Shown here piece after piece: positions 29,985 through 32,855 of a stretch of 64,000 nucleotides of DNA (position 1 is the first letter of the stretch; every line of letters begins with the position of its first letter). Under the pieces are notes generated by a model. It was not told the origin of the DNA and made no database searches. It worked only from the letters and a program-made list of their open reading frames with translations. Origin of the DNA: Chloracidobacterium validum (GTDB lineage: Bacteria; Acidobacteriota; Blastocatellia; Chloracidobacteriales; Chloracidobacteriaceae); NCBI RefSeq assembly GCF_018304825.1, contig NZ_CP072648.1, positions 479,501 through 543,500 of the forward strand. Direction: 5' to 3'. The position numbers were made by a program, and so were the translations under genes.

Positions 29985-31316
<1,332 letters not shown>

Positions 31317-31328
31317 TCAGGGATGTCT

Positions 31329-32477
31329 TCACAGCCCAGCCTCTTTCCGCAAGATGTCGGCCTTGTCAGTGCGTTCCCAGGTAAAGCCTTCTTCGTTGCG
31401 CCCAAAGTGTCCATAGGCGGCGGTCGGCGAGTAAATCGGGCGCTGGAGATCAAGCGATTCGATGATACCGCGTGGTGTCATCTTGAAGTGAGACCGGATG
31501 AGTTCGACGATTGTGCTGGACGGAACCCGGCCTGTTCCAAAGGTTTCAACATAGACAGAAACTGGCTCTGCCACGCCGATGGCGTAGGCCAGTTGCACCT
31601 GGCATCGCTCAGCCAGCCCTGCCGCCACGACGTTTTTCGCCACATAGCGGGCCAAGTAGGCTGCTGACCGATCGACTTTCGTTGGGTCTTTGCCCGAAAA
31701 AGCCCCGCCACCATGTGGCGCATAGCCGCCGTAGGTATCCACGATAATCTTGCGGCCGGTCAAACCCGTATCGCCCATGGGGCCGCCCACCACGAAGCGC
31801 CCGGTTGGATTGATATGGAACTTGGTATCGGCGTCGAGGAGCCCATTGGTCATGACGTGGCGGATGACATGCCGCTCGATGTCACGCCGTAAATCATCCG
31901 TTTTGACTGACTCCGCATGCTGGGTTGAAACCACGACGGCTGCCACGCGATGGGGCTTGCCATCCCGATACTCGACCGACACTTGGGCTTTGCCATCCGG
32001 GCGCAGGTAATCCAGCGTGCCATCCCGGCGGACTTCGGCCAGGCGCTGCGTCAGGCGATGCGCCAGTTGAATGGGCAACGGCATGAGTTCCGGGGTTTCC
32101 GTGCAGGCGAAGCCAAACATGAGTCCCTGATCACCGGCCCCGCCGGTGTCCACCCCCATGGCAATATCCGGTGACTGGGCATTGATGGTCGAGATAACCG
32201 AACAGGTCTTGGCATCAAAGCCATATTCGGCATTGTCATAGCCGATCCGCCTGACCACCTCCCGCGCCACCGTTGGGAAGTCCACATAGGCCGTCGTCGT
32301 AATCTCTCCGGCAATGACCACGAGGCCGGTTGCCAGGAGCGTCTCACAGGCTACCCGACCGTTGGGATCGAGCCGCAAAACTTCATCGAGAATGGCATCG
32401 GAGATTTGGTCGGCCATCTTGTCTGGATGACCTTCGGTAACTGACTCAGAAGAAAACAGAAAATCACTGCTGTTCAA
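31329..32477 (-). CDS. metK: S-adenosylmethionine synthetase
   Basis: Makes SAM from methionine and ATP. 382 aa with [93 protein letters not shown] and [27 protein letters not shown], all canonical. The start is TTG (complement of 32475-32477), with GGAGGA (complement of 32484-32489) 6 bases before it. No in-frame ATG is nearby. The 5' leader is strongly structured. It precedes ahcY. Confidence 0.97.
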
Positions 32478-32483
32478 AGCATA

Positions 32484-32562
32484 TCCTCCACGAACCGCGC
32501 GGGCTTTGGATGCAGGCCGCGTGGTTCGTCCCTGAACCAGTGAACACCGTGCGCGGCTGCAT
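32484..32562 (-). promoter_or_regulatory. metK leader with two mutually exclusive helices (candidate riboswitch-like element)
   Basis: Plus-strand coordinates; the RNA is the complement. Fold 1: ATGCAG+CCGCG (32510-32515, 32517-32521) pairs with CGCGG+CTGCAT (32552-32562), enclosing hairpin TGGTTC/GAACCA (32522-32527, 32534-32539). Fold 2: ACGAACC (32490-32496) pairs with GGTTCGT (32523-32529), extended by 32498-32502 with 32517-32521. The 32517-32527 bases serve both folds, so they compete. Fold 2 abuts the ribosome site (32484-32489). No known SAM riboswitch consensus was recognised. The rest of the 378-base gap to recJ has a T-run (minus strand, near 32632) and nothing else clear. Confidence 0.55.
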
Positions 32563-32855
32563 GTAACCAGAAACCATGACTAAAATCGGGCTGAGCAAAA
32601 CTCAAAGTTGACAACCGTAACATGTGAAACAAAAAAAGCCAACCTATCCGACAGAGACCGCCCAAGCTGACGTCCGGCGACCACCGATGCTTCCACCTTA
32701 CGCTGCGAAGTGATTTGAAATCATCACGGTTTTGTGGAGATTTACCAGCCTATGGGGGATTGGCTAAGGGGGTGAACGCGCCGCGTCGGTCTTGGCCAGC
32801 AAGTTCCGCCAAGCCACTTCAAGCACTGGGCTTCAACCACGTGAGAAACGCCTTT

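Follow-up and report, generated by a model that had tools for sequence, protein, structure and literature searches.

A conserved leader upstream of metK-ahcY in Chloracidobacterium, probably a genus-specific cis-regulatory element

The window – the whole stretch of DNA analysed here, 64,000 nt in length – belongs to the genome of Chloracidobacterium validum (3.66 Mb in two contigs), which was compared with those of six congeners (G001-G006). Its minus strand carries metK (31329-32477), a gene of 382 codons that begins with TTG and whose orthologues in the six congeners are 91-93% identical. As the preliminary description of this locus had stated, ahcY (29985-31268, minus strand) follows metK downstream of the leader; the two genes adjoin in all seven genomes of the genus and in five other genomes checked. 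An oppositely oriented neighbor, which from its sequence we take to be recJ, lies opposite metK-ahcY in all seven genus genomes. The seven best named relatives of metK come from Blastocatellia and other Acidobacteriota (very near records may be omitted from this set). Two genomes of the same class (G023:C25 and G027:C2) hold a second, divergent metK that is 54% identical to the C. validum gene; the copy in G023 contains one in-frame TGA.

Upstream of metK, a predicted -35 element (TTGGCT, 32637-32642, minus strand) and a predicted -10 element (TACGGT, 32614-32619, minus strand) are separated by a 17-nt spacer. The first five bases of the -35 element are TTGGC in six of the seven species and TCGGC in G004, and by eye the element aligns with a TTGACA found ahead of metK in other Blastocatellia; the 17-nt spacing is likewise kept in six of the seven species, with 14 extra nt between the elements in G004. 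From sequence alone we infer a transcription start near 32607, which would place it upstream of 32562. Little conservation is evident upstream of the promoter-like pair. Between recJ and the metK promoter, all seven species carry a lone conserved block, GTAAGGyGGA (32692-32701, minus strand), which may be a signal for recJ on the opposite strand.

The conserved unit is the metK 5' leader (32478-32607, minus strand), which spans 130 nt in C. validum and, counted from a conserved CTTT, 130-142 nt across the seven genus genomes. Alignment of the seven species gives a fixed order: promoter-like pair, box 1, box 2, a variable middle, R1 and the ribosome site. Box 1 (CTCAGCCCGATTTTA, 32581-32595, minus strand) is found across the genus as CTCAGCCCGAyTTTC and near forms. 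Box 2 (GGTTTCTGG, 32567-32575, minus strand) reads GGTTTyTGG in all seven species, with an alignment consensus of TGGTTTyTGG. R1 (CATCCAAAGCCC, 32501-32512, minus strand) contains ATCCAAA in five of the seven and CCAAAACC exactly in four; in G004 it is CGGAAACC, which pairs better with box 2, and in G006 it carries a 3-nt deletion. The ribosome site (GGAGGA, 32484-32489, minus strand) is represented by GTGGAGG in every species, shifted by a single alignment column in G001.

Mean pairwise identity across boxes 1 and 2 (28 nt, picked by eye) is 87% in the seven species, versus 52% at four-fold codon sites of metK. The 150 nt before metK contain 44 invariant columns with a mean pair identity of 0.64, and the same measure applied to four control genes gave 7-24 invariant columns and mean pair identities of 0.38-0.52: 16 columns for ribBA, 24 for hom, 15 for a peroxiredoxin-like gene and seven for recJ (names presumed from the gene sequences), where some of the ribBA and recJ stretches lack a start-codon anchor and the hom stretch also covers the end of an opposite-strand tRNA gene. 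Conservation of the leader exceeds the neutral expectation. A leader model, built from the same seven genus genomes in which its matches were scored, found a single strong match in each, before metK (E from 2.7e-32 to 7.7e-25), and the five remaining matches at E<=10 had E values of 1.78 or worse. A convincing second copy turned up neither in these seven genomes nor in the remaining 155 of the class, the class-wide search being one with stricter filters, in which 19 candidates were scored per listed genome and weak relatives were possibly missed. The single match among those 155, in G110 (E 0.016 per single genome, with 162 searched), reads by eye as coding and its locus has no metK; a second exact match to box 1 in G002 falls within a reading frame of 512 codons. 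Over the seven genomes box 1 had 32 matches versus 31 for the reversed sequence, and box 2 had 11 versus 8. A conserved leader ahead of a metabolic-pathway gene, a feature by which riboswitches are recognized, is present here, and the leader is probably a genus-specific cis-regulatory element of metK.

The preliminary description recognized no consensus of the known SAM, SAM/SAH or SAH classes in the leader, and the covariance models of Rfam 15 concur, with no match at E<=10 between 32300 and 32900; no Rfam family matches the leader, and hence none of the SAM, SAM/SAH and SAH classes of that database does. At the gathering score the whole window yielded two tRNAs only, and the metK loci of 20 relatives yielded no match. 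Five matches at E<=5 appeared in the seven genus loci; every one of them concerns an unrelated family, is at chance level below the gathering score and falls outside the leader. SAM-I (RF00162) is common ahead of metK, where it usually acts as a transcription terminator switch. No match to it was found in 58 genomes of this lineage, C. validum included, in a search with stricter filters that lose weak matches; the same search was positive in three of 14 control genomes. Given no SAM-I in these 58 genomes and no Rfam SAM class at the metK loci examined, control of SAM synthesis in this group needs explanation. SAM-III (the SMK box, RF01767) controls translation of metK by pairing around the ribosome site; the present leader differs in that the SAM-III model has no match and the genus leaders revealed no conserved pairing partner for the ribosome site. 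The SAM/SAH riboswitch (RF01727) resembles it in being lineage-restricted and directly upstream of metK (PMC2864571), but is a compact H-type pseudoknot (PMC7367207) whose model does not match the leader. The nearest precedent is the SAM-Chlorobi motif (RF01724), a candidate RNA that is likewise lineage-restricted and found in leaders of metK and ahcY operons, together with strong promoter sequences (PMC2864571); it differs in occurring in another phylum, and its model has no match in the leader of C. validum or those of the genus. Preliminary in-line probing of SAM-Chlorobi in that study revealed no binding of SAM or SAH (PMC2864571). Among leading matches in the open-licence literature on Chloracidobacterium riboswitches, on metK riboswitches with Acidobacteria and SAM, on transcription starts and on SAM riboswitch classes, no report of the leader was found, and none of those on transcription starts names Chloracidobacterium thermophilum.

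Attention had been drawn to this leader by two helices. In helix A the 5' arm (32552-32562, minus strand) pairs with the 3' arm (32510-32521, minus strand; 32562-32552 with 32521-32510), giving 11 bp with one bulged C and a duplex energy of -17.3 kcal/mol; in helix B the 5' arm (32517-32529, minus strand) pairs with the 3' arm (32490-32502, minus strand, read as 32502-32490), giving 12 bp with one A.C mismatch and a duplex energy of -20.7 kcal/mol, and ends against the GGAGGA ribosome site (32489-32484). Both are as originally described, the TGGTTC/GAACCA hairpin is present, and because 32521-32517 is shared the two helices exclude each other. Pairs of this kind arise readily by chance: 177 of 300 dinucleotide shuffles of the C. 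validum leader contain overlapping helices that both reach 11 bp or more (G-U pairs allowed, plus one mismatch or bulge). None of the six congeners has either helix in full, the best being nine of the 11 pairs of A in G005 and G001 and ten of the 12 pairs of B in G004. The 106-nt region does not stand out in its minimum free energy (z -0.47; 58 of 200 shuffles were equally low), and in the seven-species alignment, C. validum included, the columns of helix A pair in 72.7% of cells and those of helix B in 75.0%. The competing A/B folds are mostly particular to the C. validum genome: a real conserved leader was reached via a reason mostly local to that species.

The only pairing above chance, and this in nascent RNA, is that of box 2 with R1. 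In this long-range helix (P1) the 5' arm is GGUUUyUGG of box 2, and the 3' arm (32509-32502) is CCAAAACC, or CCAAAGCC in C. validum, where helix A extends P1. The predicted probability of box 2-R1 pairing in RNA ending at R1 is 0.85 in C. validum, 0.53 in G003, 0.80 in both G002 and G004 and 0.83 in G005, with G006 (0.00) and G001 (0.12) barely forming the helix; the mean is 0.56, and five of the seven species reach 0.5 or more. Permutation of the R1 columns equalled this mean in four of 300 cases and the five-species count in five of 300; permutation of the box columns equalled neither (0 of 300 for each). Duplex strength alone was matched by 21 of 500 permutations, the joined-block consensus was not significant (76 of 500), and 95.9% of cells are paired with zero two-sided changes. 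P1 was picked by eye from the alignment before testing; because it was chosen after looking, among about six helices, these permutation figures are suggestive only. Together the folding predictions lend moderate support to the pairing of box 2 with R1 during transcription. From the end of R1 to +15, P1 pairing drops in all five P1-forming species at 37 and 50 C, and at 55 C in four of the five (in G004 it passes from 0.61 to 0.62); in G002 and G004 it strengthens first on addition of the ribosome site.

Covariation in both helices, the test proposed along with the original observation, was not significant overall across the seven species. Helix A has four pairs with two-sided change and a covariation score reached by two of 500 shuffles, in an alignment where 27% of its cells are unpaired and under a shuffle control that ignores relatedness; helix B has two such pairs and is not above shuffles. 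The consensus fold is not above chance (z -0.65; 74 of 300 column shuffles equally low). When arms were swapped between species, the true arms were equalled in 1578 of 5040 swaps for P1 (2880 for the P1 core alone), 835 for P2, 1112 for P3 and 4800 for H1. The true register gives more paired cells than slid registers for H1 plus P2, P1, A and B alike, an advantage partly expected where structures derive from the same sequences; H1 plus P2 pair in 92.4% of cells with one two-sided change. Two of these candidates were rejected. Hairpin H1, between box 1 and box 2, has stems that are 94.3% and 100% paired, but, the swaps aside, column shuffles did as well 28 times in 300 and permutations 147 times in 500; hairpin P2, ahead of the ribosome site, has a single two-sided change and was also matched by 28 of 300 column shuffles.

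In a C. validum transcript ending at 32501, where the 3' arm of helix B starts, the mean predicted probability is 0.94 for P1 and 0.95 for A; when the transcript reaches the ribosome site helix B stands at 0.97, and at +15 A stands at 0.34 and B at 0.64. Of 35 pairs stable at 32501, 29 are lost on reaching the ribosome site, as happened in two of 200 shuffles, or in one of 120 when the truncation point was allowed to vary. G006 refolds too (three of 120 shuffles), though without P1, and refolding is not clearly above chance in the other five species (G003, 76 of 120; G002, 9; G001, 49; G004, 19; G005, 80). At 142 nt the ensemble energy for C. validum is -46.3 kcal/mol with A and P1 forced and -47.2 kcal/mol with B forced; as modeled, little energy separates the two folds. 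That the arrangement is the layout of a translational switch, as had been proposed, is not clearly supported: a switch of that kind would be expected to conceal the ribosome site in one state, and the site is not clearly hidden in either. The probability that GGAGGA is unpaired is 0.82 with B forced and 0.58 with A plus P1 forced at 142 nt, versus 0.24 and 0.38 respectively at 172 nt; the sign of the difference therefore depends on length. No conserved ribosome-site partner emerged among the seven species, and the partners seen in single folds, early metK codons included, vary between species. In the A-forced fold box 1 pairs with the block around the ribosome site, but this candidate was discarded: 490 of 500 permutations were as strong.

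These data are consistent with the following sequence of events. A promoter close to 32642-32614 would drive transcription of the metK-ahcY operon and yield a leader some 130 nt long; during transcription box 2 would pair with R1 across the variable middle to give P1, extended by A in C. validum; P1 would then weaken as the start region emerges, with helix B taking over in C. validum. The balance of early and late folds may set the level of metK translation and in this way provide feedback on SAM synthesis, in response to SAM, SAH, methionine, a protein, or the pace of transcription alone. That the leader is a cis-regulatory RNA in this sense – the balance of folds tuning metK, whatever the signal, and a SAM-cycle riboswitch being counted within it – is a proposition to which we attach an even chance. 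The structural evidence for it comes from seven species.

A second reading, possible though not one we would expect to prevail, is that the leader is fixed and does not switch: it would serve mRNA stability or ribosome loading, and the helices would be incidental to a G+C-rich leader. The frequency of A/B-type helix pairs in shuffles (177 of 300), a consensus structure not above chance and unclear refolding in five of the seven species all agree with such a leader; it leaves unaccounted for the conservation of boxes far from the ribosome site and the complementarity of box 2 and R1 above chance.

Within the reading as a cis-regulatory RNA, the particular case of a SAM-cycle metabolite riboswitch of an undescribed class – a ligand holding either P1/A or the alternative fold and so altering metK translation – is unlikely. 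The metK-ahcY context, the conserved leader, the near-equal folds predicted in C. validum, and the lack of any Rfam SAM class in the leader and of SAM-I in the 58 genomes argue for it; against it are covariation that is not significant overall, a consensus structure not above chance (z -0.65), and a leader known in one genus and before one gene only. SAM-Chlorobi, from the same context, also counts against it: preliminary in-line probing of that motif revealed binding of neither SAM nor SAH (PMC2864571). Unlikely, too, is the specific form in which the switch is kinetic: P1 would form first, the variable stem would close an aptamer, and a SAM-cycle ligand would decide displacement as the ribosome site emerges. 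Were this so, the leader would represent a SAM-cycle riboswitch class absent from Rfam. It is in any case a short RNA suited to testing, and would be a new class if it bound a SAM-cycle compound; if it did not, it would resemble SAM-Chlorobi as probed so far in a preliminary way (PMC2864571).

The boxes might instead act as DNA, forming an operator for a repressor just past the transcription start, which we regard as decidedly unlikely. Neither box is more than about 45 bp from the inferred start, and SahR, an SAH-responsive DNA regulator, controls metK and ahcY in Proteobacteria (PMC4239095). The sites of MetR and SahR described there are palindromes (PMC4239095), but when the promoter and boxes were scanned for inverted repeats (arms of six exact or of eight allowing one mismatch, with a gap of at most 11), six of the seven species had none and C. 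validum had only the TGGTTC/GAACCA hairpin; moreover, R1, far downstream, is likewise conserved, and the boxes are not enriched elsewhere in the seven genomes.

Very improbable is a short upstream reading frame that runs from box 2 to the metK start and couples translation: an [AC]TGGTTT frame is open to between -3 and +14 of the metK start in all seven species, and differences between G005 and G001 lean to third codon positions (2, 0, 6; five codons synonymous, two not), but chance would readily leave such a frame open (493-935 of 1000 shuffles per species), the start codon is CTG in G004 and G006, by eye no ribosome site comes ahead of it, the differences between G003 and G002 are even over codon positions (6, 5, 4; two codons synonymous, nine not), and the other frame ends early in three of the seven species. 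A frame of 63 aa (32474-32665, minus strand) has a TGA that overlaps the metK TTG, and the stretch of it within the leader stays open as far as metK in four of the seven species only. In the sister genera G007 and G009 (L009, L010) the metK leader is, by eye, without the boxes, and a different hairpin (TTCCTCA...TGAGGAA and TTTCTCA...TGAGGAA) lies ahead of the ribosome site.
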